NCBI GenBank assembly: GCA_963580285.1
Contig: OY757019.1
Coordinates: forward strand, 64,252,587 to 64,316,586
From: Lucinisca nassula
Taxonomy: Eukaryota; Mollusca; Bivalvia; Lucinida; Lucinidae
Reading direction: 5' to 3'
Length of the DNA stretch: 64,000 nucleotides
Both the position numbers and the translations under genes were made by a program. The notes under the pieces were generated by a model. That model ran no database searches and was not told where the DNA came from. It saw only the letters and a list, made by a program, of their open reading frames with translations. This document shows, one piece after another, positions 14,854 to 34,530 of the stretch; position 1 is the first letter of the stretch; the number at the start of each line of letters is the position of its first letter.

Positions 14854-15285
14854 CTCAAACCAGTCCGCTCGGGTGAACAAGATGGCCACCGGAGCTAAAA
14901 ATAGACAAAACCTTTAAACGACTTCTCTTCCTGATTTTGAAAATATATTTCACAGGAATGTTCCTTGGGGCACCTCTACCAAAATTGCTCGGGTGAACAA
15001 GATGGCCACCAGAGCTAAAAATAGAAAAAAAAATTAAAATAATTATCTTCCTTTACCAGTGGATGGATTTTGAAATTATTTCACAGGAATGTTCCTTTGG
15101 TGGCCCTCTACCAAAATTGCTCAAACAGTTCCGCTGGGAAGAACAAGATGGCCGCCAGAGCTAAAAATAGAAAAACCTTTTAACACAAACAGCTTCCTCT
15201 CCTTCACCAGTGGATGGATTTTGAAATGATATACAGGAAAAATTGCATGGATGACCCTCTACTAAAATTGCTCAACCCACTCTGC
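14854..15285. repeat. ~150-bp satellite B, right block
   Basis: Continuation of the satellite around the Penelope fragment, about three units with the same GGATGGATTTTGAAA, CACAGGAATGTTCC and AGATGGCCGCCAGAGC landmarks. It ends at ACCCACTC, where the first, truncated unit of the Polinton-end array begins. Confidence 0.75.
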
Positions 15286-15471
15286 GCGGGGACAACCTCA
15301 CGGCGTATCGGCCATTTTGGATGACCTTTGCCACGTCTCTTTTGTTTGGTGAAGGCACTAAACAAAAGGTCAACCCAGCTGCTCCGTGACCTCGGAATAA
15401 AAATCCGTCTCTATTGTTCGTAGAAGGCACTAAAAATTGAAAACAAAAGCCTGATCCCTATATGTGAATAC

Positions 15472-15905
15472 ATGTTTTCACAAGCAAGCAATGACTTGTT
15501 TCAAACGGAAAATTACGATTGGATGATTAAAACGCTGCTATTTGATTGGCTGATGAAATCTTTGACAATTCGGTTCTTTTCCATAGGGTTTGTCATTCGC
15601 TCTTCGAACTTCAAAATGAAACCAACCTTTAAACTTTCTACCCACACGGTAGAAAACACTTAGATGTTTACAATGAATACGCTTCAGTCTTTTTTAACGT
15701 GGATAAAATGTATGAATGTGTTGAAGCCTGCCTCCAAGAACCGGATACTGTAAAACAGATTGGAAAAAGAACTGAAGTAACAAAACGTTTCAATTTTGAC
15801 ATTGGAATTGTAGGCTATACGAATGAACCTAGCAACAAGATAAAAGCGATCTTTACGAGGACTAAGAAAATATGTTTTGTGATAACCGCTTATCCCATTG
15901 CTTAA
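15472..15905 (+). pseudogene. Unit 1 copy of the 144-aa Polinton ORF (frameshifted)
   Basis: Same protein as the intact copy at 17,083, but the A5 run after the GTAG near 15,650 is A4. The frame stops after HTVENT (15,663), and the second half is open only from its own ATG at 15,699. A first missense difference is LTIRF versus LKIRF. Confidence 0.85.
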
Positions 15906-15970
15906 GTGGTCAGTCGACATGTTTGGACACGATTTTCAGTTAAACGGTTATTCAGAGAGACACTAAAAAT

Positions 15971-16250
15971 AGTATTGGCGTCGGTTGGGCCCCACGGACT
16001 GCGCATGCGCGGGGATGACGTCACGACGCGTCGGCGCGGCAGCCATATTGGATGACCTCGGAATAACTTTGGCGCCACGGACTGCGCATGCGCGGGGACG
16101 ACCTCACGGCGTATCGGCCATTTTGGATGACCTTTGCCACGTCTCTATTGTTTGGTGAAGGCACTAAACAAAAGGTCAACCCAGCTGCTCCGTGACCTCG
16201 GAATAAAAATCCGTCTCTATTGTTCGTAGAAGGCATTAAAAATTGAAAAA
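15971..16250 (+). repeat. Polinton left terminal inverted repeat (outer copy)
   Basis: Begins AGTATTGGCGTCGGTTGGG and includes two CACGGACTGCGCATGCGCGG blocks and GGTCAACCCAGCTGCTCC. It is the inverted counterpart of the right end at 33,033-33,394. The 5'-AG terminus is usual for Polintons. Confidence 0.9.
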
Positions 16251-16276
16251 AAAGCCTGATCCCTATATGTGAATAC

Positions 16277-16710
16277 ATGTTTTCACAAGCAAGCAATGAC
16301 TTGTTTCAAACGGTAAATTACGATTGGATGATTAAAACGCTGCTATTTAATTGGCTGATGAAATCTTTGAAAATTCGGTTCTTTTCCATAGGGTTTGTCA
16401 TTCGCTCTTCGAACTTCAAAATGAAACCAACCTTTAAACTTTCTACCCACACGGTAGAAAACACTTAGATGTTTACAATGAATACGCTTCAGTCTTTTTA
16501 AACGTGGATAAAATGTATGAATGTGTTGAAGCCTGCCTCCAAGAACCGGATACTGTAAAACAGATTGGAAAAAGAACTGAAGTAACAAAACGTTTCAATT
16601 TTGACATTGGAATTGTAGGATATACGAATGAACCTAGCAACAAGATAAAAGCGATCATTACGAGGACTAAGAAAATATGTTTTGTGATAACCGCTTATCC
16701 CATTGCTTAA
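16277..16710 (+). pseudogene. Unit 2 copy of the 144-aa Polinton ORF (frameshifted)
   Basis: Carries the same one-base deletion in the A run as unit 1. The N-terminal half is open from 16,277 to 16,468 and the second half from 16,504 to 16,710. It has private changes such as FNWLMK for FDWLMK. Sharing the deletion suggests units 1 and 2 derive from one another. Confidence 0.85.
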
Positions 16711-16775
16711 GTGGTCAGTCGACATGTTTGGACACGATTTTCAGTTAAACGGTTATTCAGAGAGACACTAAAAAT

Positions 16776-17060
16776 AGTATTGGCGTCGGTTGGGCCCCAC
16801 GGACTGCGCATGCGCGGGGATGACGTCACGACGCGTCGGCGCGGCAGCCATATTGGATGACCTCGAAATAACTTTGGCACCACGGACTGCGCATGCGCGG
16901 GGACAACCTCACGGCGTATCGGCCATTTTGGATGACCTTTGCCACGTCTCTTTTGTTTGGTGAAGGCACTAAACAAAAGGTCAACCCAGCTGCTCCGTGA
17001 CCTCGGAATAAAAATCCGTCTCTATTGTTCGTAGAAGGCACTAAAAATTGAAAACAAAAG
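16776..17060 (+). repeat. Polinton left terminal inverted repeat (inner copy)
   Basis: Second full copy of the terminus, nearly identical to 15,971-16,250, starting with AGTATTGGCG. It ends near TTGAAAACAAAAG. It is directly continuous with the intact 144-aa gene and the rest of the element, so it is the true structural left end of the 16.6-kb core element. Confidence 0.9.
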
Positions 17061-17082
17061 CCTGATCCCTATATGTGAATAC

Positions 17083-17517
17083 ATGTTTTCACAAGCAAGC
17101 AATGACTTGTTTCAAACGGAAAATTACGATTGGATGATTAAAACGCTGCTATTTGATTGGCTGATGAAATCTTTGAAAATTCGGTTCTTTTCCATAGGGT
17201 TTGTCATTCGCTCTTCGAACTTCAAAATGAAACTAACCTTTAAACTTTCTACCCACACGGTAGAAAAACACTTAGATGTTTACAATGAATACGCTTCAGT
17301 CTTTTTTAACGTGGATAAAATGTATGAATGTGTTGAAGCCTGCCTCCAAGAACCGGATACTGTAAAACAGACTGGAAAAAGAACTGAAGTTACAAAACGT
17401 TTCAATTTTGACATTGGAATTGTAGGATATACGAATGAACCTAGCAACAAGATAAAAGCGATCTTTACGAGGACTAAGAAAATATGTTTTGTGATAACCG
17501 CTTATCCCATTGCTTAA
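17083..17517 (+). CDS. Unknown 144-aa Polinton protein (intact copy)
   Basis: A complete reading frame in unit 3, first gene inside the left terminus. I do not recognise the family. The N-terminal half is basic and aromatic (DWMIKTLLFDWLMKSLKIRF). The second half has two cysteines in YECVEACLQEPD, then an apparent beta-rich segment, FNFDIGIVGYTNEPSNKIKA, and ends in ICFVITAYPIA. There is no signal peptide. A short C-terminal beta-hairpin ending in an AYP-type motif reminds me loosely of small nuclease folds, but that is only an impression. Its two outward copies are frameshifted at the same A run. Position beside the terminus may mean an early gene. Confidence 0.7.
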   Translation: MFSQASNDLFQTENYDWMIKTLLFDWLMKSLKIRFFSIGFVIRSSNFKMKLTFKLSTHTVEKHLDVYNEYASVFFNVDKMYECVEACLQEPDTVKQTGKRTEVTKRFNFDIGIVGYTNEPSNKIKAIFTRTKKICFVITAYPIA

Positions 17518-17609
17518 GTGGTCAGTCGACATGTTTGGACACGATTTTCAGTTAAACGGTTATTCAGAGAGACACTAAAAATAACAGCCAATCCGAATTG
17601 ACTCATCAC

Positions 17610-17641
17610 TATAAAAGTAATTGCCTCATTCGTTTTCAGTC
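17610..17641 (+). promoter_or_regulatory. TATA box and initiator of the PC4-like gene
   Basis: TATAAAAG at 17610-17617 is followed by TCAGTC at 17636-17641, an arthropod/metazoan-style initiator. The distance from the first T of TATA to the initiator A (17638) is 28 bp, the standard polymerase II spacing. The ATG of the PC4-like gene lies 33 bp further on, at 17671. A CCAAT sequence occurs at about 17,588. Confidence 0.75.
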
Positions 17642-17670: not shown

Positions 17671-18162
17671 ATGTCACACTTCAGATGCAGGTTCACTCTC
17701 GGTAACGATCGGTACGTGGAAGTTAACGAATGGAAGGGGCAACTACGTGTTGATCTGAGAGAATGGAAAGACGATAAACCGACGAAGAAGGGTATCTGTC
17801 TCACATTGATGCGATGGAAGAATTGGGTCGATTACTTAGAATACATGGATCAGGCACTAGCAGAGAAGAAATCCTACAGTTCTCACTTAGGAGGTAACTT
17901 CTATTGTACGATCGCGGAAGGCGGCGTGTGTGTTGATATAAGGCAGTATTGGAAACCCCAGGAGGATGTGGTACCCACGAAAAAGGGACTGTGCTTGAGA
18001 CCTTTGGAATATAAACGCTTAAAAGAACTGTTGTCAGAGATAGGAAACGCTTTACCCGAACTGGACGCAGTGGTACCTTGTTTTCTACAGAGTGATCACA
18101 TGAACCAACTGGGAGCGTTACAGTGTTCTGAATGTAACCCCAACGATTTTAACAATTGGTGA
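17671..18162 (+). CDS. Double PC4-like ssDNA-binding transcriptional coactivator
   Basis: The 163-aa protein holds two copies of the PC4/SUB1 C-terminal domain. Domain 1 (residues ~8-60) has RYVEVNEWKG, VDLREW, KKGICLTLMRW and a terminal D-A-L helix. Domain 2 (~70-125) has VCVDIRQYW, PTKKGLCLRPLEY and LLSEIGNALPEL. The pattern of beta strands with a basic KKG turn followed by an amphipathic helix matches PC4, which normally works as a dimer that binds melted promoter or single-stranded DNA and stimulates polymerase II initiation. Here the two domains are fused, so one chain might imitate the dimer. A C-terminal CSEC pair follows. The gene is intact and has its own TATA-Inr promoter. Roles in replication as an ssDNA-binding protein are equally possible. 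Confidence 0.8.
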   Translation: MSHFRCRFTLGNDRYVEVNEWKGQLRVDLREWKDDKPTKKGICLTLMRWKNWVDYLEYMDQALAEKKSYSSHLGGNFYCTIAEGGVCVDIRQYWKPQEDVVPTKKGLCLRPLEYKRLKELLSEIGNALPELDAVVPCFLQSDHMNQLGALQCSECNPNDFNNW

Positions 18163-18405: not shown

Positions 18406-19530
18406 ATGTCCGACTGGAAACAGTACTTGTCTTCCTTGTACTTTAATTCCAAGTCCCCGGCTAGCTATCTTGGTCCTGAAAAATTGTATCAGTTTGTTAA
18501 AACTGAAGGCAAATATAAAATTGGGAGGTATAGAGTCCGAAAATGGTTACAAGACCAAGAGTCTTATTCCCTAACCAAAGGCGCTAGACGTAAATATACT
18601 AAATCGAGGGTCATTGTGGCGGGCATTGACAGCCAGTGGGATGTGGATCTCATGGACATGGTAGATCTAGCCAAACAGAATGACGGTTATCAATATGTAG
18701 TGGTCGCCATAGATATTTTTTCCCGCTTTGCCCACTGTCAGCCTGTCAAAAGTAAAAAGGGGAAGGACGTTGTGGACGCATTGAAACGTCTGTTAAGCGG
18801 TCATCGCAAGCCAAACATGGTCCGGTCTGACTTAGGAATGGAATTTAGAAGTGTGGAAACCAATAAATACTTTAAACAACAAGGCATTTACCACTTTTAC
18901 GCATTAAACACAGAGACAAAAGCAAATTATAGCGAACGCCTTATCAAGACTTTAAAGCACAAGCTGTTTAGATACATGATGAAACACAGAACGCAGCGCT
19001 ACATAGATGCCCTTCAAGACATCGTATACAGCTATAAATATACCCGACATCGAAGTCTTGGAAAAGCACCTGCATCCATCAACAAGGACAACGAAGGGGA
19101 AAGTAGACTACAGCAATATTTTCTGAGACAAAAGGGCATCAAATCGAAGAAGAGGTCCTCGAAAAACACTTTGCACCGATACAAGTTTAAACTAGGTCAA
19201 ACGGTTCGTCTGTCCCACGTGAGAAGCTTGTTCGACAGAGAGTACTCACAAAAATGGACTGGAGAAATATTTAAAGTCAAAACCCGTTTCAGAAGAGATG
19301 GTATACCTGTCTATACTCTCGCGTCCTGGGATGAGGAAAGCGTAAACGGGACATTTTATGAACCGGAAATGCAGGCCGTCCTTGTCGATGCCTCAACGGA
19401 ATATCACATTCAAGCGATATTAAAGAAGCGTGTGCGAAAGAAAAGAAAAGAAGTGTTAGTAAGATGGTTACACTGGCCCAAAAAATATGACAGCTGGATA
19501 CCAGAAGAAGACGTCAAGGACTACTCCTAG
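18406..19530 (+). CDS. INT: Polinton integrase (DDE, with chromodomain)
   Basis: A 374-aa intact retroviral-type integrase that would insert the element's DNA ends into the genome. The catalytic triad is visible: D81 in WDVDLMDM, D142 in VRSDLGMEF and E177 in NYSERLIKTLK, with 34 residues between the last two (DD35E). An SH3-like region follows (RSLFDREYSQKWTGEIFKV). A C-terminal chromodomain (about residues 330-374) is seen in EVLVRWLHWPKKYDSWIPEE; such chromodomains usually direct Polinton and chromovirus integration to marked chromatin. The N terminus is short, without a clear HHCC zinc finger in what I can see. Start at 18406 follows an AT-rich leader. Confidence 0.93.
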   Translation: MSDWKQYLSSLYFNSKSPASYLGPEKLYQFVKTEGKYKIGRYRVRKWLQDQESYSLTKGARRKYTKSRVIVAGIDSQWDVDLMDMVDLAKQNDGYQYVVVAIDIFSRFAHCQPVKSKKGKDVVDALKRLLSGHRKPNMVRSDLGMEFRSVETNKYFKQQGIYHFYALNTETKANYSERLIKTLKHKLFRYMMKHRTQRYIDALQDIVYSYKYTRHRSLGKAPASINKDNEGESRLQQYFLRQKGIKSKKRSSKNTLHRYKFKLGQTVRLSHVRSLFDREYSQKWTGEIFKVKTRFRRDGIPVYTLASWDEESVNGTFYEPEMQAVLVDASTEYHIQAILKKRVRKKRKEVLVRWLHWPKKYDSWIPEEDVKDYS

Positions 19531-19633
19531 ACCAATCAGAAGCCTGACCGATCAGAGAATCAAATCACGTGACTCTTGTTACAATATATATGTAGGACCA
19601 ATCGTTAGACCCGTCATTATTGAAGATTACACC
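19531..19633 (+). promoter_or_regulatory. Likely promoter of the TBP-like gene
   Basis: The 103-bp gap between integrase and the TBP-like gene contains ACCAATCAGA (CCAAT, 19,530s), a CACGTG E-box at 19566-19571, ATATATAT at 19584-19591 and another ACCAATC at about 19,597. The E-box sequence is the same core as the array near 30.5 kb. The assignment is inference from motif clustering. Confidence 0.45.
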
Positions 19634-20148
19634 ATGAAGATTACAAATGTCGTTTATAGCGCTCATTTGTGCAGATCTATCGACTTGAGAGACCTATGTC
19701 GGCGTCTATGTAACGCCCGGTACGACCCCAATACGTTTCCCGGACTTATATGGCAACACAGAAATATTGGTGGTAACTGCTTGGTGTTTCCCAACGGCGT
19801 GATTAATTGTAACGATAGTGCTTCCAATGCAGATGAAGGATATCAGAGGTTACGAAGGTATGCCAGACAACTTCAGAAAATGGGGTTACCAGTCCAGCTC
19901 AGAAAAGTCAAGATGGTGACAGCGTCCGCGAGCCATTCTCTAAGTGATGTTCTTAACATAAAGATGTTTGCCAAAGAAAGAAGAGGTGTGTACGAACCAG
20001 AGCTGTTTCCCGCCCTTAATTTTAAAATCTTTGCTGTTTTCATACGGGTAAAGTGGTGATCACCGGTATAAAAGGTTCTCGCCAAATCGATAGTGTGGTC
20101 TTTCCAACCCTTATAGAACTGGAGCTCTATACGCGTAAGAAGCGGTAA
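19634..20148 (+). pseudogene. TATA-binding protein (TBP) homologue, frameshifted
   Basis: Starting at ATG 19634, residues 1-134 align by eye with the conserved saddle core of eukaryotic TBP. First repeat: ITNVVYSAHL, IDLRDL, RNARYDPNTF-type block (NARYDPNTF, 27-35), LVFPNG (50-55), then an RRYARQLQKMGLP helix. Second repeat: VKMVTASASHSL and VYEPELFPAL (119-128). Three of the four phenylalanines that intercalate into the TATA minor groove (equivalents of human F193, F210 and F284) are F35, F52 and F125. Near 20,030-20,040 a deletion of a few codons shifts the frame; the rest (about 20,041-20,148) is open one frame over, with HTGKVVITGIKG and a C-terminal basic tail, ending at TAA 20146-20148. 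The intact ancestor would be ~175 aa, the TBP core with no N-terminal extension. In the cell it would bind TATA promoters for polymerase II. Confidence 0.82.
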
Positions 20149-20167: not shown

Positions 20168-20506
20168 ATGGAGCATTCCAAAGTCTACCAGTGTGTTCAC
20201 TTTCTGACGACGTTGAAGAACGCCACCCCTTCTGTCCGTAAAACGCTGTTAAAAAACCTAACTACACAGCAATTGTTATCCATCATAGAAGTGGCCAAGA
20301 GACTGAGCAACGGAACCATCAATCCTCTAAGAAGGGATGCTCAACTTTTTCAGAGAAGACGGTTGATGCTAAGAACATTGACATCCCGTGGAATCAGTGT
20401 AAGAAGAAAAAAAGCTTTGGTGAACAGACATTCCTCGATTATACCGCTAATGTTGAAAAGTGTGTACCTGATTCAGAGTATCTTGGACGAAATCAGAGAA
20501 CAATAA
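20168..20506 (+). CDS. Small basic Polinton protein, paralogue 1
   Basis: An intact 112-aa basic protein with VRKTLLKNLTTQQLLSIIEV followed by an Arg-rich segment (RRDAQLFQRRRLMLRTL), RRKKALVNRH and a C-terminal hydrophobic helix. Clearly paralogous to the minus-strand gene at 23,326-23,649: both have xRKTLL..(I/L)T..QL..I.E(I/V)A near residue 25-45, an Arg/Lys-rich middle and a hydrophobic end. The family recurs in animal Polintons, but I cannot name a function; a basic DNA-condensing or capsid-linked role is plausible. It overlaps the next gene by one base (TAATG). Confidence 0.7.
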   Translation: MEHSKVYQCVHFLTTLKNATPSVRKTLLKNLTTQQLLSIIEVAKRLSNGTINPLRRDAQLFQRRRLMLRTLTSRGISVRRKKALVNRHSSIIPLMLKSVYLIQSILDEIREQ

Positions 20507-20945
20507 TGACAGACTTTTACGTCTACCTCAGCAGCAAAGACTCTTCAGAATTGCGTAAGAACAATAACCCATCAGATTTTTGGATTCAGTTTAACAAGAC
20601 TTATACTTTAGACGGTGGCTGGGTGTGCGCTCTCAAACAGATTTCGTTGACGTGTAATTTTACTCCCAGAGCCAAACGACTGTATCTCTGCTGCGATATT
20701 GTGGAAGAGTCATACGTAAGAAACAAAACTGTACCCATTTTAAGAAATATCGAGATCGAACCCGATACAAAAAGCTCAAAACTGACACGTTCGAAGACTC
20801 CGTCTATATACCCGTGAACGTGACGAAGTTGTCTGCCATCAGACTGTATCTACTGGGGGAAAATCTTCAACCCATAACCTTCGAGTCCAACGACCTGCAT
20901 TGTGTGCTGCATTTTAAACAAAATGGGATCTATCGAAGTGTTTGA
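20506..20945 (+). pseudogene. Penton-like minor capsid protein, frameshifted
   Basis: The N-terminal part from ATG 20506 has MTDFYVYLSSKDSSELRKNN and FNKTYTLDGGWVCALKQISL, the single-jelly-roll opening typical of Polinton minor capsid (penton) proteins, which occupy capsid vertices. Between about 20,745 and 20,765 the frame shifts by one. The remaining C-terminal strands are open in the new frame (for example YIPVNVTKLSAIRLYL and LHCVLHFKQNG) and end at TGA 20943-20945, inside the next gene. Full length would be about 146 aa. The break makes the gene nonfunctional in this copy. Confidence 0.78.
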
Positions 20946-21315
20946 CAAGAAACTGCTAAAATGGGTGCCCTATGTCCCAGACTACGAGGCATGGTGCCAA
21001 CACTTCAAAGACTTGAGCGAGGGTTTCGTTCAACCCGATTACAAGGGGCGTTATATCGTCGGTAGTGGTAGAAGAAACCGACTTCTAAAAGAAATGGAAG
21101 ATCAAATGCAAAAAGAAATAGAAATGCAGGAAAAGCAAAAACCCTTGGTGAAATTGGTCACTCCCGTGGCTCAAGCGGTCGAAATGGCTAAATCGGAAAT
21201 TGAGCGAGACCGTAAGAAGGAAGGTGGCGGAAAGCGTAAGAAGAAGTCAAGTGTCAGTAAACCACTACCAAAACGATTAAAACGGTACGCTTACAATCCG
21301 GAAGATCAGGTTTAA
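20923..21315 (+). CDS. 130-aa Lys-rich protein between penton and capsid genes
   Basis: ATG at 20923 overlaps the end of the penton frame by 23 bases; an upstream GTG in the same frame is unlikely to be used. The N-terminal half contains LLKWVPYVPDYEAWCQHF and YIVGSGRR. The middle is a predicted Lys/Glu-rich coiled helix (EMEDQMQKEIEMQEKQKP). The end is strongly basic (KRKKKSSVSKPLPKRLKR). Placement between minor and major capsid genes suggests a capsid-associated or DNA-binding structural protein. Family not recognised. MCP starts 4 bases later. Confidence 0.65.
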   Translation: MGSIEVFDKKLLKWVPYVPDYEAWCQHFKDLSEGFVQPDYKGRYIVGSGRRNRLLKEMEDQMQKEIEMQEKQKPLVKLVTPVAQAVEMAKSEIERDRKKEGGGKRKKKSSVSKPLPKRLKRYAYNPEDQV

Positions 21316-21318
21316 ATC

Positions 21319-22575
21319 ATGGATACATATCATCAAAAACGTTTAAATATTTTCGAAATGCCACCATCAGACCCAGCGTTTCAGTCGAGGGAATGGATCG
21401 AGTATCGACCGTCAAATCAAGTTACTTCGTCATCAGTGATAGACTTTAACATTGCTTCACAGTCTTCCGCTTACATAGACCTCAAAAATAGCTTGTTAAA
21501 CGTAAAATTACGATTGACAGATGCTCAAGGGACCCCTCTACAGGAGGACCTCGTCGCTGGACTAATAAACCTACCCTTACACACCATATTTAGACATGTG
21601 GACGTGACCTTTCAGCAGACGCCGTTGTCAAACATTGGCACAAATTATCCGTATAAAAGTTACATCGATACCATTTTGAAAACAAACAAGGGCACACAGG
21701 AAAATATATTATCCAGTCAGCTGTTTTACAAAGATACGGGCGATAACCCAGACTCAGCAGATGCGTTGACGGGACCTAACAGCGGACTTTTTGATAGATA
21801 CATGGCTACCAAAGGAGGAAAAATTGTTGACTTGGAAGGGCCTTTATTTCTTGACATGTTCCAACAGTCGAGATTAATGATTAATAGAGTAGGTATAGGA
21901 ATCAAACTATGGCCGAGTCTGGACGCATTCAGACTAATGTCGGACAGTTTGAATGCTAGTGAGAAGGTACAGATTGTCGATGTACGATTCAAACTCTGCG
22001 TACAACGTTTAAACGGGGCTGTTTTAGTTGCTCACGAGAAACTCATACAGAACCAACCAGCCTTATATCCCTATATAAGATCAGAGGTTAAAATAGCCTC
22101 CATAGCTTCTGGACAGTACGGATTCAGTGCAGATGACATATTTCAAGGATTGGTTCCCACCAAACTTGTGGTAGGACTGGTGTCTAGCGCCGCTTATACG
22201 GGGGACTACACAAAAAACCCGCTTAACTTTCAACCGTACGATTGTAGTTCAGTGGGTCTTTACGTCGACGGCCAGTCATACCCCTCTCAGCCTTTACAAC
22301 CGAATTATAGTGCTGATCAGTTTGTGGACTGCTACAGAACGCTATCGCATTTCAGGAAAGATATCAATGTGAGCAGAGAAGATTTCAAGTACGGATTCTG
22401 TCTCTATGTCCTGGATGTTGATCCTTTCTATGCGTTCAATACAAAGAGGAAAGGGCATTGTAGGTTAGAACTCAAGTTTGCCAATCCTTTACCAGAGAGC
22501 GTCACCTTGGTTATGTACGCATCCTTTCCAGAAGTTCTTCAGATTGACCAGTCTAGGTCAGTATATCTAAAATGA
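21319..22575 (+). CDS. MCP: Major capsid protein (double jelly-roll)
   Basis: An intact 418-aa protein with the features of Polinton/adenovirus-lineage double-jelly-roll capsid proteins. These include a strand pattern beginning FNIASQSSAYIDLKNSLLNV, then INLPLHTIFRHVDVTFQQTP, NYPYKSYIDTILKTNKGTQE, and later NRVGIGIKLWPSLDAFRL, HEKLIQNQPALYPYIRSEVK and FCLYVLDVDPFYAF. It would trimerise to build the capsid shell. Length is near that of Polinton homologues. Start is the ATG just after the previous stop. The stop region (ATGAATAA) overlaps the protease start by 4 bases. Its integrity contrasts with the broken genes on each side. Confidence 0.9.
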   Translation: MDTYHQKRLNIFEMPPSDPAFQSREWIEYRPSNQVTSSSVIDFNIASQSSAYIDLKNSLLNVKLRLTDAQGTPLQEDLVAGLINLPLHTIFRHVDVTFQQTPLSNIGTNYPYKSYIDTILKTNKGTQENILSSQLFYKDTGDNPDSADALTGPNSGLFDRYMATKGGKIVDLEGPLFLDMFQQSRLMINRVGIGIKLWPSLDAFRLMSDSLNASEKVQIVDVRFKLCVQRLNGAVLVAHEKLIQNQPALYPYIRSEVKIASIASGQYGFSADDIFQGLVPTKLVVGLVSSAAYTGDYTKNPLNFQPYDCSSVGLYVDGQSYPSQPLQPNYSADQFVDCYRTLSHFRKDINVSREDFKYGFCLYVLDVDPFYAFNTKRKGHCRLELKFANPLPESVTLVMYASFPEVLQIDQSRSVYLK

Positions 22576-22998
22576 ATAATTTTGAACTTGAAAGGATATT
22601 GAGAGGTTATCCCGTCAGTGTTTGTGCGGCTGATACTATCAGAAGGAATAAGATTTGTGATCGCAAATACGGATACGATAGCTGGACCCGGAAAGCACTG
22701 GGTGGCCTTCTATTTTACAGACAGAGGACCAGACGAGTTCTTCGATTCTCTGGGCAATACGCCGGAATACTACAATGTGGGTTTCGAACGTGTACTACAG
22801 AAACATTACTTGACAATCTGCAACCGTTTACAAGACTTTGGATCTGATAGGTGTGGACTGTACTGTATATATTATGTAATGGGTCGATATGCGGGGATGT
22901 CATTGAAGGACATTGTGAGGGTGTTCAGCGTGAGAGATCTAGAGATGAATGATAGATTTGTGAGAACTTTTGTAAATACAACACAACAATTTATATAG
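22572..22998 (+). pseudogene. PRO: Adenain-like cysteine protease, frameshifted
   Basis: Capsid maturation protease of the Ulp1/adenain clan. The start at 22572 (overlapping the capsid stop) reads MNNFELERILRGYPVSVCAA. A frameshift at about 22,640-22,655 moves coding to the next frame, which contains the catalytic His in GPGKHWVAFYF, the Asp in EFFDSLGNTP and the Cys in GSDRCGLYCIYY, and runs to TAG at about 22,998. Total length would be about 140 aa. All three catalytic residues are present; only the frame is broken. Confidence 0.85.
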
Positions 22999-23056: not shown

Positions 23057-23326
23057 TTAAAATGATATCCAGTCTATGAATCTATCAGTGTCTGTGTGAG
23101 AATCACGTTTTCCTGGAGGTGTTGGTGTCACAGTACGCGTATGCCGATTCCCTGGAGACAGTGGTGTCACAACTGCTTTACTCTTTATCTTCCTACTGGG
23201 CTTCTGCATTATACTTGTTTCCCTCGCCCGTTTCATCGATGGCTTCTCACTATGAGACTTGTGAAGGCTAGTCCTTGCTTGCATTCGTTGATATTTGTCA
23301 AAGGGAACGAGTACTAGTTTTTCCAT
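23057..23326 (-). CDS. 89-aa basic Polinton protein
   Basis: The ATG at 23326-23324 overlaps the upstream stop (TGATG), so I prefer it to an upstream in-frame ATG. The product begins MEKLVLVPFDKYQRMQ, a pattern that recurs in small animal Polinton proteins. It continues as a Lys/Arg/Pro-rich unstructured tail with two TP.SPG/TPPGKR-type repeats and ends DRFIDWISF. Function unknown; last gene of the minus block. Confidence 0.55.
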   Translation of the reverse strand: MEKLVLVPFDKYQRMQARTSLHKSHSEKPSMKRARETSIMQKPSRKIKSKAVVTPLSPGNRHTRTVTPTPPGKRDSHTDTDRFIDWISF

Positions 23327-23649
23327 CAATCGAGTACAGCTTTCAAGTAAGGAATGGCTATTTTTAAAAGGATGTACACAAATCGCTGATTCTCCCAAAT
23401 GACCTTTGTCTTGTGATGATAACCCAGTGCTCTGTCTCCCAAAAGATGCAATAGTCGTCTCTCACGTTTAAGCGACCTTTTCTCCACTTTAGTTAACTGT
23501 ATCTTGAATTTGACAATGTTGTGAGCTATCTCACTTATCGCTCTCAGTTGATGTCTGGTGATCGTTTGTAGCAATGTCTTCCTCTGAGCGGGCGTGGTTT
23601 GTACGAACAGCAATAGAAAATGACGTTCTTGTACCAGTAACTGAACCAT
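23326..23649 (-). CDS. Small basic Polinton protein, paralogue 2
   Basis: A 107-aa protein containing QRKTLLQTITRHQLRAISEI, KVEKRSLKRERRLLHLLGD and a hydrophobic C-terminal helix. It is related to the plus-strand 112-aa gene at 20,168, although they lie in opposite gene blocks. It sits 29 bp downstream of the ATPase and overlaps the following gene by one base, so the block looks like a compact polycistronic or closely packed set. Function unknown. Confidence 0.7.
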   Translation of the reverse strand: MVQLLVQERHFLLLFVQTTPAQRKTLLQTITRHQLRAISEIAHNIVKFKIQLTKVEKRSLKRERRLLHLLGDRALGYHHKTKVIWENQRFVYILLKIAIPYLKAVLD

Positions 23650-23678
23650 GGTTACTCTTACAGGTTTCAGTCTCGTTC

Positions 23679-24335
23679 TTACGTCAGTCTGTAAATCACG
23701 GGGTCTTCACCAGGGAAAATACGGGTCCTAAGACGGTATCTGGTTGCGGCATGAGGGCTCAAATCTACCAAGAAATATCCGTATTTCTCGTGACTCAGCG
23801 CGTCCTCGTAGGCTTTTAAAAATCCTTTTGATTTCCCGGGATACAACTGACGTCCAAGTATTGACACTTGTGATACGTCACGCAAATTTTTCATGAGCAC
23901 CATGTACCACGTATTCAGAGCTATGGTTCTTGCATGTTTTCCTCCTGGGTATAAGTTCTGGGTGATCAAGATTACACTCACGCATGTGTGATGAGTCCCT
24001 TGGGTGAATAAGAGTTCCATGTCTTTGTTGCGCATAACTTCGTGCATCAGATCATCGATGATAATGAGTTTATGCTTTTTATCTCTGGTAAGTTCGTCTA
24101 TTTCTTCGGTAGTTGGTAGTCCCTGTTGGCTGTAAAAATTTGGTATAGTTTCTTCCATGGTGTCATAGAGATCTTGGTGTATGCCGTAACAGTATAATAT
24201 GTGGGTAGGCGGGTCTCGGAGGTACATGGACTGTACATTTTTCAGAAATTTGTACACCCATTGCGTTTTACCGCTTCCGGTTTGACCACTGATACACACA
24301 CTAGAACAAGGTTCAAAAGGTAGTGTACAATTCAT
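23679..24335 (-). CDS. ATP: DNA packaging ATPase (FtsK/HerA-like)
   Basis: An intact 218-aa ATPase. Walker A GQTGSGKT is at residues 17-24, Walker B LIIIDD at 90-95, with a sensor-type ILITQNLY segment at about 131-138. This family pumps DNA into capsids in Polintons, virophages and adenovirus-like relatives. The start codon is embedded in ATGA with the stop of the preceding membrane-protein gene. The strongly conserved frame suggests it decayed little since insertion. Confidence 0.92.
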   Translation of the reverse strand: MNCTLPFEPCSSVCISGQTGSGKTQWVYKFLKNVQSMYLRDPPTHILYCYGIHQDLYDTMEETIPNFYSQQGLPTTEEIDELTRDKKHKLIIIDDLMHEVMRNKDMELLFTQGTHHTCVSVILITQNLYPGGKHARTIALNTWYMVLMKNLRDVSQVSILGRQLYPGKSKGFLKAYEDALSHEKYGYFLVDLSPHAATRYRLRTRIFPGEDPVIYRLT

Positions 24336-24605
24336 TTCTTTAACTTTGGGTTGGGAAGTGCGTAGCCTATTTAGCTACTCAGGAGACTGATCCAAAGTTC
24401 TGTGGAACCGTTTTGGAGAGATAGGTTCACAATGGAGGTAATGATTATAATGTAGACGATGATCATCTGACAAAAGTAGACAATTTCGGCTTGGGGGACT
24501 CGAGTTCCCAGTAAATGCCACTTATCTCCGCTAATACGACTTTCTTCGTCTGGTACCCTAAAAAAATGCTTCCCTTTCGGGTTCATGAGACTCGGTAGGA
24601 TTCAT
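24333..24605 (-). pseudogene. Polinton membrane protein, disrupted
   Basis: A short protein with one clear hydrophobic segment (VYFCQMIIVYIIIITSIVNL) followed by TELWISLLSS and, after an in-frame TAA at 24373-24371, IGYALPNPKLKK ending at TGA that overlaps the ATPase ATG. An upstream ATG (24,605) is in another frame, separated by a frameshift in a T run near 24,565, so a later ATG at 24586 opens the remaining frame. This one- or two-helix protein next to the ATPase is a regular Polinton component; it may act in assembly or entry. Confidence 0.65.
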
Positions 24606-25360: not shown

Positions 25361-28300
25361 TTAATATCCATAAGGCACTGTATCATAGTTATCTATTTTT
25401 CTACGCTTCGTATAAACCATCTGATACGTTTTCTTTTCTTCTCGATTTATAAGTTTTCGTTTTCTCTTATCTCTACATATTTTGCTTGGATTGGTTACCG
25501 TGATGTTTGTGCAACTTTTTGGATTGGTTACAATGTCTTCGACGCTTTCAAAATTGATGAGTTGACTGTTCGTATAGTTTAAAGTGAATCCCCTAACCTT
25601 ACAAGTTTCTTTATTTGTGTTTGTTTTGTAAGCTCATCCGTGAGTTCGCCCAGGTAGTCACCCAATGGAGGGTCATACTGTCCCGGACGACTCACGTATA
25701 TCACGCTGTCCGTGTCATAATACAAGACACGCCTGTCTAACTCTTCGAGCACGCTGTACAGTTTCAGTCTTGCCCAGCATGTAGTGAATGTAGCTAAATA
25801 AATGTTGGTTTTGTTATCTTCGGGTTGACAATCTTGTTTATAAATCCATTCAATTTGAATCATGTCATTTAAAAGTATGTGAAAATTCAGAGGTTGTTTC
25901 GTTGGATCGGAAAACAATTGGAAGAACATGTTGGCTTCCGTTTCGTGAAAGAACTCTGTCTGTCGCATGTTGAGCCGTTGGCCAAAACTTGCCCCAAAAG
26001 CTGTTTAAGCATAATTTGGCCAGGGCTCGCAAACCTGGGTTCTTTGCGATATTTCCTCGGTCCAACGATACACCCTCCTTCTCGAAATATTGCTGAATGT
26101 ATTGATTCATATCCGTTTCATTTTCGATCCAGTCCGGGGGACCACTCGCCCCTTGCTTAAACTTTAAAAACGTGTTTATATATTTGGCGAATAGCCCCCC
26201 TTCTCTAGTCTTGGGGTCATATTGAGTCGTTTCCTCCCAGTGGTATACCTCGTAAATTTTTTTCAGGCTATATCCTAATCTTAGAGCAGTTTGAATCTCA
26301 GGGGTACACCAGGTGCCTGTCAACTCTCTTTCCTCTTCAGAGCACGTGCAAGGGTTTTGATTTTCGGTATCCGCACAGGTTTTGCATAGGGGGAATTTCA
26401 ATTTACCATTTGATCTGTAGGGAAGGACTGGATGATACAGTCATCTTGGAGGTAGAATTTTTATTTTTGCGATGCCAAAATAGTCATGTATATTTCCAAA
26501 CTCTTTAGTGATAATGATGGGGTGACCTACGGGATACCGACAATACTTGTTCACCCAGGGATAGAGACTAGTAAAATCGACGTATCTGATTTGCTCCTGT
26601 TCTGAAGTTTGGTAATAGAGTTGACTCGCATTGGTGCGACCCCCGAAGAAACTCTCTCTAGGATCTAGCCTGTCCATTAGATCTAACTGTAGGGTAAATT
26701 GTTTAAGCTCAGAGTTTTGATTTCGTAGCTTTTTAAACTCATGGTCCCAAATACAAACGTAATTCATGCCTAATTGTTCTATGTATGCTTTCTTTTTCAT
26801 GGTTAATGCGTATAATTCCTTTAAAGATTGGTTTGTGAGTGGATGGTACGTGTCTTCGCGGTTATCGGAGAAACAATCAGGGCAACCGTGAAAGATGCAA
26901 CCATGGTACTCGTATGCCGTGTTTGTTTCTTCGCAATAACCGTCCAGTTTGTAACGTGTGCCCGGTAAAGACTTTTCGCCTGTATTCAAAGCGTGCTGAA
27001 TGTGTGTGTTACTGACACGTGCCATCCATTCTAACCACTGAATTGAAACCTTGCTGTACTGATCATTGTAACCGCTGGGAGGGATTTTTGCGATAGGTGT
27101 ACGCACAAACTCTCTTTCGCTTACTCTCTCACTTGTGATGTCGGATTCGTGGACCCATTTGTTGTCTTTGAAAATGTAACATTTTTCATCGACGATTTTG
27201 GCGGGCACCCAATCGTCACGGTCTTCAAACTTTACCCGCCATTCTTCTTCGATGAACTTTGTTCTAAACACGCTCATGCACACGGACGCTATGGTGACTG
27301 AATCAAATGGATCCACGGCCCCAAACCACTTTCTCTCTTTCTTATTCTTATCATTGATCACTTCTTTTTGAACACCTGTAGCACTCATCAACAACTCTCT
27401 AAATTTCAAACACGATTGCCTTAAAATGTCTACATCACTTCTACAATATTCTAACATTTCTTTTCAAAAATCAAAATCTTCATCCTTTCTCGCACTCAAC
27501 CATTGCAATAATTCTTCTCTCTCTTCATCTCCCATAAAATTGTGACCATAAAATTTAGCTTCAGGGTAGGGTCCCACATAATTTTGATTTTCTCTCGTAT
27601 TAAAATAATGGGGGAACCATCCCTTTTTGAGCTCTTCAAGTCCAAAAGCTTTAGGTAGTTGCGATCATTTCATAGGTAAGAAGTTGAGACTGTCAATCAC
27701 TTTGATATGTAAATTTCGCTCGACTGTCATATACATTATTTTTGAACCGTTATAGATGATTTTGTCGGGGCGTAGGGACTGGTCAATAAGGTACTCTAAA
27801 AGAAAATAGCCATCATATCCTTTCATGTTATGAGCTACAACTTTAAAATGTTTATGTTGGTCGTTAAATAGCCATGCTCCAATTTTTTCGGCGGTATCCG
27901 CTCCTTCAAAAGTGACTTCTCTAAAACCGCATTTGCCGGGACAAGGACCATCGTCTTCGTTGTCCCACAAACCGGTATTGTCACAATCTTCGCAGCGGGT
28001 ACCGCACGCCTTACATACAGATTTAGGGGTCAGGGGCTTATCAATGCATTTGGGACAAACGGAATGCGCTACGACAAAGTTAGGACGATACGTAGCCTTA
28101 CCACACCATGAAGTTTTACAATGTTGACATTTAGAACAAGATTTACATACCTGTTGAGTTTGACAGTCCTTACAATTATCCTTTTTCAAAGGTTTATATT
28201 TTTCCATACATTCAGCAATTTCATCCTGACTACATTCAAAATCAAAATAGATAAATTTAGGAATAAAGTCCTCTTTAGCTTGTTTAGTTCTCAGGTAACA

Positions 28301-29077
28301 TTGGTGATCATCCATAACATATTTTTCGCAAGATTTACATAAGTATTCACCACACTCGTGTTCCTCTGTTTTTCGTTTGTCTTTTCTCATTACTTTATAG
28401 CATTTAGTACACTTCCACCATTTTTCGCACTGTGATGGACCGCTTCGTTTCCCCTTAAATTTTCCATTTTTATGTACCGGAACTTGTTTGTGTTTCTTAT
28501 AGCATAATTCAGATCGACAGTCCATATTGCAGTCCTGGCATTTTACTGGAGTCTCTGTTTTTGGACAATGATCCTTTTTACATACGATACACGAAGTGTC
28601 GCACTGGTGCCTTTCTCGATGATCGTAATGAAAAAGGCATTTTTCGCAAAAGTATATAGCGCTGAAGAAGCCGGTGATAGTGGTAATAGCGTGAAAGTGG
28701 TCGTCGTCGACTAGATACACGTAAATACACGGTCGTTCGTCGGTACTAGGACTTGTAATAAACTTGTTACCTAGTCTGGCACTGACCACCATCACGCGGA
28801 CTCCCAAGGCTTCTTCAAACGCCTCCACATCATTTAAACTCGCCGGTCTGTCCATCGCTACTCCCGCTAACTGGCTGATGGCTGTTGCTAATTGTCGCTG
28901 TTCGTCCCTCGTTTTCGTACGGAGCTTTTTGAAATAACTTTCCGGTACTTTCTGATGTTCCAAAATAAGTTGTAAGTTGCTTTTATTTCCCCTGGTTTGG
29001 GCTATTTTTTTGCCATTCTTCTGGTGTACATCTTTGGAGTTTTGCCCAACTGACACCGATCGCTCTCGCCATACAAA
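25361..29077 (-). pseudogene. POLB: Family B DNA polymerase, main part (broken)
   Basis: A protein-primed type DNA polymerase for replication of the element. Reading on the minus strand from the joint at ~29,077: MARAIGVSWAKLQRCTPEEW, Cys-rich zinc clusters (about 28,660-28,000), exonuclease motif I FIYFDFECSQ (~28,250), exo II VVAHNMKGYDGYFLLEY (~27,830), exo III EYCRSDVDIL (~27,450), polymerase motif A DFTSLYPWVN (~26,570), motif B KLCLNSFWGKF (~25,990) and motif C YYDTDSVIYV (~25,700). Breaks: a frameshift near 29,040-29,000, in-frame TGA codons at 27667-27665, 27466-27464 and 26443-26441, a one-base insertion in a T run at ~25,990, and a deletion with frameshift at ~25,600 after DYLGELTDEL. 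The C-terminal part resumes at TCKVRGFTLN and ends at TAA 25363-25361. Confidence 0.88.
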
Positions 29078-29460
29078 TAAAATTTAAAAAAAGAGTTCCT
29101 TTAAGAGCAATGAAAATATTCATAAGAAAGAAGATGGGTCATACTACGTAGTTTCGGCTAATAAAGCCTCATCAGTGACCCTGTAATGATCCGGCAACGA
29201 AAGCCAGAGGAAGCATACTGCAATTTAGCGAATTTCGAATAAGCAGTCGATTCAAAGACTGATATAAATAAAAAAATGAGGTCCAAATAATTAAAAACCT
29301 GTCTAGAATTCTAAACTAATAATTTATTTCTGATTTCTCAGAATATTCACGCTGATCTCAAAGGACCAAAAGTAAAATATAAACTGCACTATGGTTGATG
29401 TACGGGGAGACGTTTTACGGCCGCCACACGGCACAACACCAGCTGCAGTGCAGCTGCAAA
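29078..29460 (-). mobile_element. ~380-bp insertion in the polymerase gene, Penelope/retrozyme-like
   Basis: On the minus strand the polymerase coding sequence reads up to a Leu-Cys codon pair at ~29,457, is interrupted, and resumes with the next codons at ~29,073. CAAA occurs at both joints (29074-29077 and 29457-29460), a possible 4-bp target duplication. The insert carries a hammerhead ribozyme (29,181-29,136), the segment CTTCCTCTGGCTTTCGTTGC upstream of it and an A/T-rich end. Hammerheads with very short stem III are a hallmark of Penelope-like terminal repeats and of retrozymes, so I assign it there. Confidence 0.75.
29136..29181 (-). ncRNA. Hammerhead ribozyme (type I, short stem III)
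   Basis: On the minus strand the order is stem I GGGTCA, core CTGATGA, stem II GGCT-loop-AGCC, core GAAA, stem III around CTACGTAG, cleavage triplet GTA, stem I partner TGACCC. Stem I is 6 perfect pairs, stem II 4 pairs. Stem III is the palindrome CTACGTAG, which gives only 2-3 pairs alone but could pair between two molecules. All invariant core bases are present. Predicted self-cleavage is after the A of GTA (plus coordinate ~29,142). Confidence 0.88.
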
Positions 29461-30355
29461 GTTGGTCTTCATTCTCAGTTGTCACTATAGATGCCTTCAA
29501 TTGTAAAGAATTATTTTTTCCTTTTATCATGGTGATTCTGCGTCGAGGTCCTTCACTGCCTTTGGGTAAATCTATAGTTCCAATTGTAATGTCAAAACTT
29601 TCGTCAATAGCGAGATTTTGATTGCTGTTAAGGACTTTCTCGATGGTCTCCATCACTTTCTGCGCGTCCAGTTGGTCCCAGGCCTGCAGGGGTACAACGA
29701 TAGGGTCGTGTAAACCTTCGTGATGAATCACGACCCTTCCCAAGTCGTTTCCCGCCAAATTGCCACGGGCTTCGTTCAAAACATCGTTGAACATATGATG
29801 GAGCCCATCTCGTATGTCTTGTAACCGTTCCCCGTTGTGCTGCTCGCTAATTTTTATCTGGTAGGTGCGGTCCACGGCCGCATTTTTGGCGTACGTTCTT
29901 TCCGACTTTTTTCTCATGTTGTACTGGAGTGGTGGGGTATCGGGTCGTCGTGACGGTCCCGGTTGAGGTTCTTCCCCTCCGCCTGTCTGTGGTAAAGGCG
30001 GGTTCCAGTCCCCATCCTCGACACAAGCATTAGCCGTTTCTTCCATCTCGTCATCAAATAGAATAGCCTTGGTCGACTCTTCGACCTCTTCCTGTTCTCG
30101 AACGTATTCCAGGGCCAGATCTAAGTCGTCTTCTCTCGACTGTATATGAATAGTTGGCCCTCCTAGATGTTCAAGTATCGTATCTAGTTCTTCTCTGACA
30201 AAGACATCTCCGTACTCTTGGTTTCGTAACTGGAACAAACGAAGTCGCACCCCCGGGGAATCCTGTATCCCCCACGTCGCTGCAAAATTCATTAAGGCGT
30301 CGGCGTCAGTAAACGTGTTCACCATACTCTCGAACTGTGCTGTGATATTTTCCAT
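29457..30355 (-). pseudogene. POLB: DNA polymerase N-terminal extension
   Basis: ATG at 30355 begins about 300 residues of the polymerase precursor: an acidic linker (EEVEESTKAILFDDEMEE), a Pro-rich stretch, then KISEQHNGERLQDIRDGLHH, GNDLGRVVIHHEGLHDP and DESFDITIGTIDLPKG, ending ENEDQLC at the insertion site. This extension precedes the polymerase domain in animal Polintons; by analogy with protein-primed polymerases it may hold the terminal protein. The frame seems open for another ~40 codons inside the insertion, but these are not polymerase sequence. Confidence 0.8.
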
Positions 30356-30399: not shown

Positions 30400-30420
30400 C
30401 GCTCGTTCTTATATACTTTT
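30400..30420 (-). promoter_or_regulatory. TATA box of the polymerase gene
   Basis: TATATAAG on the minus strand (plus 30,408-30,415) lies about 53 bp before the ATG at 30355, in an otherwise ordinary leader. Spacing predicts initiation near 30,380. It is immediately preceded (plus 30,455-30,720) by the E-box-like array. Confidence 0.65.
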
Positions 30421-30454: not shown

Positions 30455-30720
30455 AAATAGCATTTCGGGTTGTCACGTGATCGCGTCACGTGATCGCGTC
30501 ACGTGATCGATTTTCTAGTTAGCCAGAATAATTTTGTAAAAAATAGCCTTTCGGGTTATCACGTTATCGCGTCACGTGATCGCGTCATGTGATCGATTAA
30601 ACAGAATATGTTTGTAAAATTAACACTTCGGGTTGTCACGTTATCGCGTCACGTGATCACGTCGTGTAATCGATTTTCTAGTTAGCAAGAATGGGTTTGT
30701 AAAAATAAGATTTCGAACTC
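30455..30720. promoter_or_regulatory. E-box-like array upstream of polymerase
   Basis: Three ~80-bp units, each starting TTTCGGGTT and carrying three 13-bp boxes of form TCACGTGATCGCG, then an AT-rich spacer with TTTGTAAA. Of nine boxes, five have a perfect palindromic CACGTG; the others differ by one or two bases. CACGTG is the binding site of bHLH-type factors (USF, MITF/TFE, Myc/Max). Repeated boxes beside the polymerase promoter suit an enhancer or a replication-origin-like element. A single CACGTG also precedes the TBP-like gene. Confidence 0.7.
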
Positions 30721-33032: not shown

Positions 33033-33394
33033 TTTGTTTTCAATTTATAGTGCCTTCTACGAACAATAGACACGGATTTTTATTCCGAGGTCATGGAGCA
33101 GCTGGGTTGGCCTTTTGTTTAAATTTTAGTGCCTTCACCAAACAATAGAAATGGATTTTTATTCCGAGGTCACGGAGCAGCTGGGTTGACCTTTTGTTTA
33201 GTGCCTTCACCAAACAATAGAGACGTGGCAAAGGTCATCCAAAATGGCCGATACGCCGTGAGGTCGTGCCCGCGCATGCGCAGTCCGTGGCGCCAAAGTT
33301 ATTCCGAGGTCATCCAATATGGCTGCCGCGCCGACGCGTCGTGACGTCATCCCCGCGCATTCGCAGTCCGTGGGACCCAACCGACGCCAATACT
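33033..33394 (-). repeat. Polinton right terminal inverted repeat
   Basis: Inverted counterpart of 16,776-17,060, ending CCGACGCCAATACT at 33,394. It is about 77 bp longer because the block from ATTTTTATTCCGAGGTCA to CACCAAACAATAG is tandemly duplicated (about 33,078-33,230). Two CGCGCATGCGCAGTCCGTGG-type blocks are present as in the left terminus. Confidence 0.92.
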
Positions 33395-33665
33395 AGTACT
33401 GAATTACATTTGGGCAAAGCCTGCTCTCCTTGCAGCAGGTAACGGTAGATGGTGAGTGTTGATATTTCTTCTGTTTCTACACTTCCATTCACTCTGTCCC
33501 TCACTTTCATCTCCTCTGCTCTCTCTTTTATCCCTTTCCCCCCTTTCACTTGGAGAAGACAAAATGATCATCAAGGGTTGACCTGTCGTTTAACTCAAAA
33601 CAATCGATGAATCAATTCTATTTTCTTCGTCGAATTTTTTAACCCTCACAAAATGTCTAGATAAC
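33395..33665. repeat. Dispersed repeat shared with 59,310-59,850
   Basis: Contains TCCTTGCAGCAGGTAACGGT, TGTTGATATTTCTTCTGTTT, GGTTGACCTGTCGTTTAACT and AACAATCGATGAATCA, all also present at 59,310-59,850, where a family D SINE interrupts the copy. This is the uninterrupted version. Confidence 0.75.
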
Positions 33666-34204: not shown

Positions 34205-34530
34205 TTTAAAAGCTTAACATGGTTCTGTCTTTTCTGACAAATTTTCCACCAGCATAAAACTTGTGCGAGTGAGCAGCTCGCCACATTCAGCCTTCGCTGT
34301 TCATAAAAGTTTTTTTTTTTTTTAACCATTGCAGTTAGAGGCGCACCGACGTTGCGATTTCGCTCCTCGCCGGGTCCGTTAGTATGTTTCTACGTACATT
34401 GTCCTCCTTTCAATGGTTTGAGACGGACAGCTAACAATGAAACTCTTACCTATTTAGAGCGACAACGGTTTCAGCAAACTTGCCCATATTTGCTGATTCT
34501 ATAAATCCGCAGAACCCTGCACAACCTTTA

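Follow-up and report, generated by a model that had tools for sequence, protein, structure and literature searches.

A TATA-binding-protein homologue, mostly paired with a tandem PC4 protein, is a conserved gene of bivalve Polintons

A Polinton in the genome of the lucinid bivalve Lucinisca nassula carries a gene for a homologue of the TATA-binding protein (TBP), and we regard it as nearly certain that this is a conserved, selected gene of bivalve Polintons. The copy described here lies in a 64,000-nucleotide stretch (GenBank assembly GCA_963580285.1, contig OY757019.1, positions 64,252,587 to 64,316,586; hereafter the window, in whose own numbering all coordinates are given). Small DNA elements are generally taken to be wholly dependent on their host for the start of transcription. 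We propose, with a probability of about 0.6, that the element-encoded TBP serves the element's own promoters via host RNA polymerase II, a role that is indirectly supported by kept TFIIB-contact positions and changed DNA-groove positions, by purifying selection, by a linked PC4 gene and by promoter-like motifs.

An earlier reading of the window, made from its letters alone (the sequence-only reading), had taken the gene to encode both TBP repeats, and this was borne out: the Pfam profile PF00352 matched the first frame (19634-20059; first 136 residues) in two stretches with 66.3 bits (cut-off 22.9; E = 2.3 × 10−18), and the best match of that frame among solved TBPs had an E value of 4.5 × 10−16. 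The segments NARYDPNTF and YEPELFPAL stand where that reading had placed them, and the three intercalating phenylalanines that it had counted in the first frame are the equivalents of Phe197, Phe214 and Phe288, with the fourth position following in the second frame. The frameshift, which it had put near 20,035, falls at roughly 20031-20046, and the last strand-helix part of the protein (CCFHTGKVVITG..., ending at the stop codon 20146-20148) is in the second frame. This 35-residue piece had no Pfam match on its own, and its identity therefore rests on whole relatives; the two frames were treated separately throughout and never joined. PF00352 also matched all 27 members of the relatives' set A1 (relative P0006 likewise in two stretches), which together with the match of the window frame rules out chance similarity to TBP.

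The predicted fold is that of the TBP saddle. In 80 relatives (those of 160-220 amino acids among the 113 described below), we scored the positions equivalent to what we take to be the four DNA-kinking phenylalanines and the residues of the minor-groove floor, together with the TFIIB contacts. Phenylalanine stands at the four kinking positions in 79, 79, 79 and 64 of the 80, respectively, and the TFIIB-contact positions are also kept; four of the eight groove-floor positions are replaced in nearly all, and for that reason TATA specificity appears doubtful in a protein that is, by sequence and fold, a TBP homologue. We infer that the protein binds DNA, that its target sequence is altered and that it engages partner proteins.

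Database searches with the TBP frame piece returned 113 proteins at 48-89% identity, 59 of them 172-176 residues long; the animal sources named were Mercenaria, Pinctada and Crassostrea, and one relative came from a Sedimenticola bin. With contig size as a stand-in for contig identity (113 TBP, the best 120 of 269 PC4 and the best 120 of 352 integrase relatives), above 2.2 kb there were 14 same-size pairs of TBP and integrase relatives where shifted sizes predict 0.34 (13 distinct sizes, 2346 being matched twice; seven below 10 kb), and 3 pairs of TBP and PC4 relatives where 0.06 are predicted, with two sizes common to all three lists. Same-size pairing under 2.2 kb showed no clear excess. The most similar integrase relative (96% identity, 82% query coverage) belongs to a bin of Thiodiazotropha, bacteria that live in lucinid clams, which points to a lucinid as the probable host of the element. 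No relatives were found in viral contigs scanned with the TBP alignment, the capsid protein, the integrase and the integrase alignment, or in prokaryote contigs scanned with the TBP alignment. The integrase alignment also turned up the end of one contig (L001:1-5000) from the assembly of a Solemya velum symbiont. This piece of a Polinton, which is probably host DNA attached to bacterial sequence, holds the greater part of a related integrase (55% identity across query residues 51-371), followed by an open reading frame whose PC4 match is weak (E = 0.039, under the cut-off), and continues, by eye, with homologues of the capsid-side genes.

The window's own 2.93-Gb assembly was searched in six frames. 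Only the best candidates were scored (150 of 333 for TBP, 150 of 362 for PC4 and 100 of 907 for the capsid gene), so every count is a minimum, and where a neighbour is missing it may simply be unlisted. After merging, at least 144 TBP places were found outside contig C175, which carries the apparent host TBP as separate exons. A same-strand PC4 lay 1-6 kb upstream in 118 of the 144 scored places (104 at 1.9-2.3 kb; chance expectation 0.02), and in 4 a PC4 lay within 6 kb in another arrangement; 6 of the 26 places without a listed PC4 have a listed capsid gene downstream, bringing those with a PC4 upstream or a capsid gene downstream to 124. Conversely, a listed TBP stood upstream of 86 of the 100 scored capsid-gene places (median spacing 1667). 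Forty stretches were fetched, from 75 places hand-picked by score class among 150 rows (the other 35 were not fetched), and sorted manually by their identity to the window into lineages A (22), B (7; the window's lineage) and C (6), with 5 unassigned. PC4 was upstream in 33, same-strand integrase upstream in 33, and on the downstream side the small gene X1 was present in 39 and the capsid gene in 33; the seven stretches without PC4 are the same seven that are without a same-strand integrase, namely all six of lineage C and L031. The lineage C stretches (L010, L011, L020, L035, L037 and L048) hold TBP and capsid-side genes; their lack of PC4 and integrase close upstream may reflect a different arrangement, insertions or decay. 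An open TBP frame of at least 165 codons was present in 27 of the 40 copies, and the gene, of which the sequence-only reading had a single broken example, recurs in many related Polintons before the same capsid-side genes. Neither of the two outcomes that the sequence-only reading had named as refuting it, a lack of a significant PF00352 match or absence of the gene from related Polintons, was observed.

Median identity within lineages was 98.6% for A (22 loci), 97.1% for B (7 loci) and 87.3% for C (6 loci, 13 of 15 pairs measured), and 103 of the 231 lineage A pairs were at least 99% identical over 1.2 kb, pointing to recent amplification of that lineage. Between lineages, the TBP frames align over 175 codons with no internal indels. 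Ratios of non-synonymous to synonymous substitution rates (dN/dS) were calculated for 27 of the 40 loci, which yield 23 distinct frames (16 in A, 5 in B and 2 in C); the other 13 loci were left out because their frame was broken or a start codon was lacking where one was expected. The ratios were 0.04-0.11 between A and B (71 defined of 80 pairs), 0.16-0.22 between B and C (10 of 10 pairs) and 0.07 in the single unsaturated A-C pair (31 of 32 A-C pairs were saturated, as were 40 of the 122 between-lineage pairs overall). Purifying selection on the TBP gene over longer times is therefore clear. PC4 behaves similarly between A and B, with dN of about 0.13-0.14 and dS of about 2 or saturated (five pairs).

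Could the gene be an ordinary host gene out of place? A one-off insertion of a host TBP retrocopy would fit the intronless and broken window copy, but is refuted by the relatives, by the recurrent genomic places with linked genes and by the host TBP exon, which reads by eye like that of an ordinary animal TBP, whereas the relatives have a median identity of 33% to human TBP; we give this explanation practically no weight. One Mercenaria record is named TATA-box-binding protein-like 1, and the gene might accordingly be the host TBP-like 1 (TRF2), as automatic annotation has it. This is highly improbable: all 72 queries matched human (47) or plant (25) TBP best of the four references (medians of 81 and 80 bits; a hand-typed human TBPL1 sequence scored 59), and the relatives grouped together to the exclusion of the four cellular references with 100/99 support, in a tree with few references and flagged long branches. 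Many large DNA viruses with TBP-like proteins bring their own RNA polymerase; no RNA polymerase was found among the Pfam-scanned open reading frames of the window. These viral proteins (those of giant viruses, poxvirus VETF/VITF-3) resemble the element protein in being virus-encoded TBP folds, but identity to them reached 22% at best (19% for the best named one) and fold matches were weaker than to cellular TBPs; an origin from a known giant-virus TBP was rejected, fold and identity both being nearer to cellular TBP. One report describes a further such protein, the B263R homologue of an abalone asfa-like virus (PMC12917281), and another mentions TBPs for mirusvirus-like elements (PMC10675990).

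The linked PC4 gene was absent from the sequence-only reading. Its product matched PF02229 in two stretches (E = 3.9 × 10−21) and has 269 relatives. It resembles PC4/p15 (SUB1) in its profile match to human PC4 chains (E = 1.1 × 10−10) and in its N-terminal unit, which is 34% identical to 6ycs_A with a TM-score by target of 0.84 (Foldseek of the predicted model); it differs in having two PC4 units per chain and a C-x5-H-x8-C-x2-C tail, and the best Foldseek match of the whole-chain model is PURA (E = 4 × 10−4, 13-19% identity). Among the best 120 of the 269 relatives, 102 are at least 155 residues long, and in 82 of the 102 the stretch P-C-x5-H-x8-C-x2-C-N-P is conserved close to the C terminus, possibly as a metal site.

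Recurring motifs precede both genes. In 35 of 41 stretches (the 40 fetched plus the window; these copies are related and so not independent), the palindrome TCACGTGA, which we take to be of the E-box kind bound by basic helix-loop-helix factors, lies 69-79 nucleotides upstream of the TBP start codon. Each of the three lineages has such cases, although L010 and L011 of lineage C lack the site, and elsewhere in 236 kb the palindrome appears five times only. The window holds eight sites against 0.76 expected, six of them inside the element. Upstream of PC4, TATAAAAG is found in lineage B and TATATATA in lineage A.

In the reading that we propose, a bivalve Polinton lineage would have taken up the core of a cellular TBP of eukaryotic type and retained it, without introns and usually with 172-176 codons, before the capsid genes, and in most copies directly after the integrase with the tandem PC4 gene before that. 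The protein would act as a dedicated initiation factor, binding and kinking DNA at element promoters and docking host TFIIB and TFIIA, so that host RNA polymerase II is loaded there, and the PC4 protein may help at melted promoter or replication DNA. Alternatively, the element TBP might compete with host TBP for TFIIB and TFIIA, dampening host transcription without serving element promoters. Kept TFIIB contacts with half of the groove floor changed would also be the pattern of a decoy, but a pure decoy would have no need of the kinking phenylalanines, and the pairing with PC4 fits an initiation module better; we judge such a take-over unlikely. Slightly less probable still is an architectural or replication role, with the protein bending DNA at the terminal repeats or acting with PC4 in replication or packaging. 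TBP bends DNA, PC4 binds single-strand DNA and a PC4 gene is upstream in most scored places, all of which would suit such a role, yet it would not require kept TFIIB-contact positions. More tentative than service of the element's own promoters is the fuller proposal that the two genes give bivalve Polintons a minimal kit for polymerase II initiation, with the preference of the TBP shifted off the host TATA box and a tandem PC4 beside it, as a private promoter system within an animal nucleus.

Several observations weigh against service of the element's promoters. The fourth kinking position is histidine in 12 of the 80 relatives, Arg203 is glutamine in 73 of the 80 and Lys249 is not kept, and the replacements in the groove might make binding weak instead of altering it. 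No TATA box before TBP common to all lineages was seen by eye, a clear TATA-like stretch being present only in lineage B among the stretches inspected. In all six lineage C stretches, PC4 and integrase are missing within 3 kb upstream, and the TBP frame is broken in four of them. Within lineages, TBP dN/dS is higher and noisy (A: median 0.35, maximum 1.44, 98 defined pairs with 22 more at dS 0; B: 0.17-0.80, 10 pairs), so that constraint is clear over longer times but not for the recent bursts. Finally, the Solemya fragment, of which the integrase-to-capsid-side part of the locus was examined, has no TBP-like open reading frame between integrase and capsid gene, and TBP therefore seems to belong to a particular lineage and not to the core gene set of Polintons.

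The element itself is a Polinton, and the genes and inverted repeats around the TBP gene place it firmly inside, as the sequence-only reading had held (Table 1). The terminal inverted repeats (283 nucleotides, 94% complementary) enclose all element genes. The integrase matched PF00665 (E = 1.2 × 10−10) and PF00385 (4.7 × 10−9); PF03175 was found in three of the four polymerase pieces, two above cut-off (best 1.3 × 10−12); the ATPase matched PF04665 at 5.9 × 10−5 (23.1 bits, cut-off 22.8), and the protease fell slightly under the PF00770 cut-off (E = 4.7 × 10−4; 20.3 bits against 21.3). The capsid candidate had no Pfam match, and PHROGs gave no match for six of six proteins. The TBP, X2 and polymerase frames are broken in this copy. 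No 6-bp target-site duplication was found, the flanks aaaaat and agtact being different; at the left end, a tandem array (15283-17570) that includes the terminal repeat consists of three units of ~805 bp, each with a short open frame, the outermost truncated. X1 and its reverse-strand counterpart are small basic paralogues (28% identity, E = 3 × 10−11), and a long open frame, gag-like by eye, lies just beyond the element (34441-36396).

Table 1 Features of the Polinton and its surroundings in the window
Feature	Positions	Strand	Basis
Left inverted terminal repeat, the innermost unit of a tandem of three	16775..17057	+	complementarity
TATAAAAG, upstream of PC4 start	17610..17617	+	
Tandem PC4 (p15 coactivator) protein, 163 aa, C-terminal C-x5-H-x8-C-x2-C	17671..18162	+	PF02229
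Polinton integrase (rve + chromodomain)	18412..19530	+	PF00665, PF00385
TCACGTGA palindrome, 69 nt before TBP start	19565..19572	+	
TATATATG, TATA-like, upstream of TBP	19585..19592	+	
TBP homologue gene, one frameshift (about 20031-20046)	19634..20148	+	PF00352, solved TBPs, comparison with relatives
Small conserved gene X1; paralogue of 23326-23706 (-)	20168..20506	+	
Conserved gene X2, apparently two frames in window copy	20509..20945	+	
Conserved open frame X3	20881..21315	+	
Major capsid protein candidate	21319..22575	+	place, length, conservation
Adenovirus-type cysteine protease, just below cut-off	22603..22998	+	PF00770
A32-type packaging ATPase	23679..24374	-	PF04665
Type B DNA polymerase pieces, frame broken	25865..29083	-	PF03175
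Leftward gene, start codon at 30355	29324..30355	-	
TATATAAG between array and leftward start codon (30355)	30408..30415	-	
Array of five exact TCACGTGA sites, upstream of leftward gene 29324-30355	30473..30656	.	
Right inverted terminal repeat	33113..33395	-	complementarity

The rve and chromodomain integrase, type B polymerase, A32-type ATPase, adenovirus-type protease (a weak match) and inverted repeats are shared with Polinton/Maverick elements and adintoviruses, from which the window element differs in carrying TBP and tandem PC4 genes. Relative to cellular TBP (human, plant and yeast cores), the element protein shares the two-repeat saddle, the kinking phenylalanines and the TFIIB contacts, and is set apart by its low identity to human TBP and replaced groove-floor positions, by the usual lack of an N-terminal extension and by its place on a mobile element. 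A literature search for Polinton/Maverick elements with TBP, PC4 or a transcriptional coactivator, covering few subscription papers, found no report of a Polinton TBP or PC4, and neither term was found in the searchable text of PMC11071296, PMC11071308, PMC12220804 and PMC10120064.

If the fuller proposal of a private promoter system is true, we know of no earlier description of general transcription factors encoded by a transposon. A transposon lineage in which purifying selection maintains an element-borne TBP, and mostly a PC4, would offer a natural test of how TBP specificity can be separated from partner contacts, and suggests a route by which viruses could have gained TBP-like factors. 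Polinton TBPs may also account for some of the 'TATA-box-binding protein-like' records in bivalve genomes.
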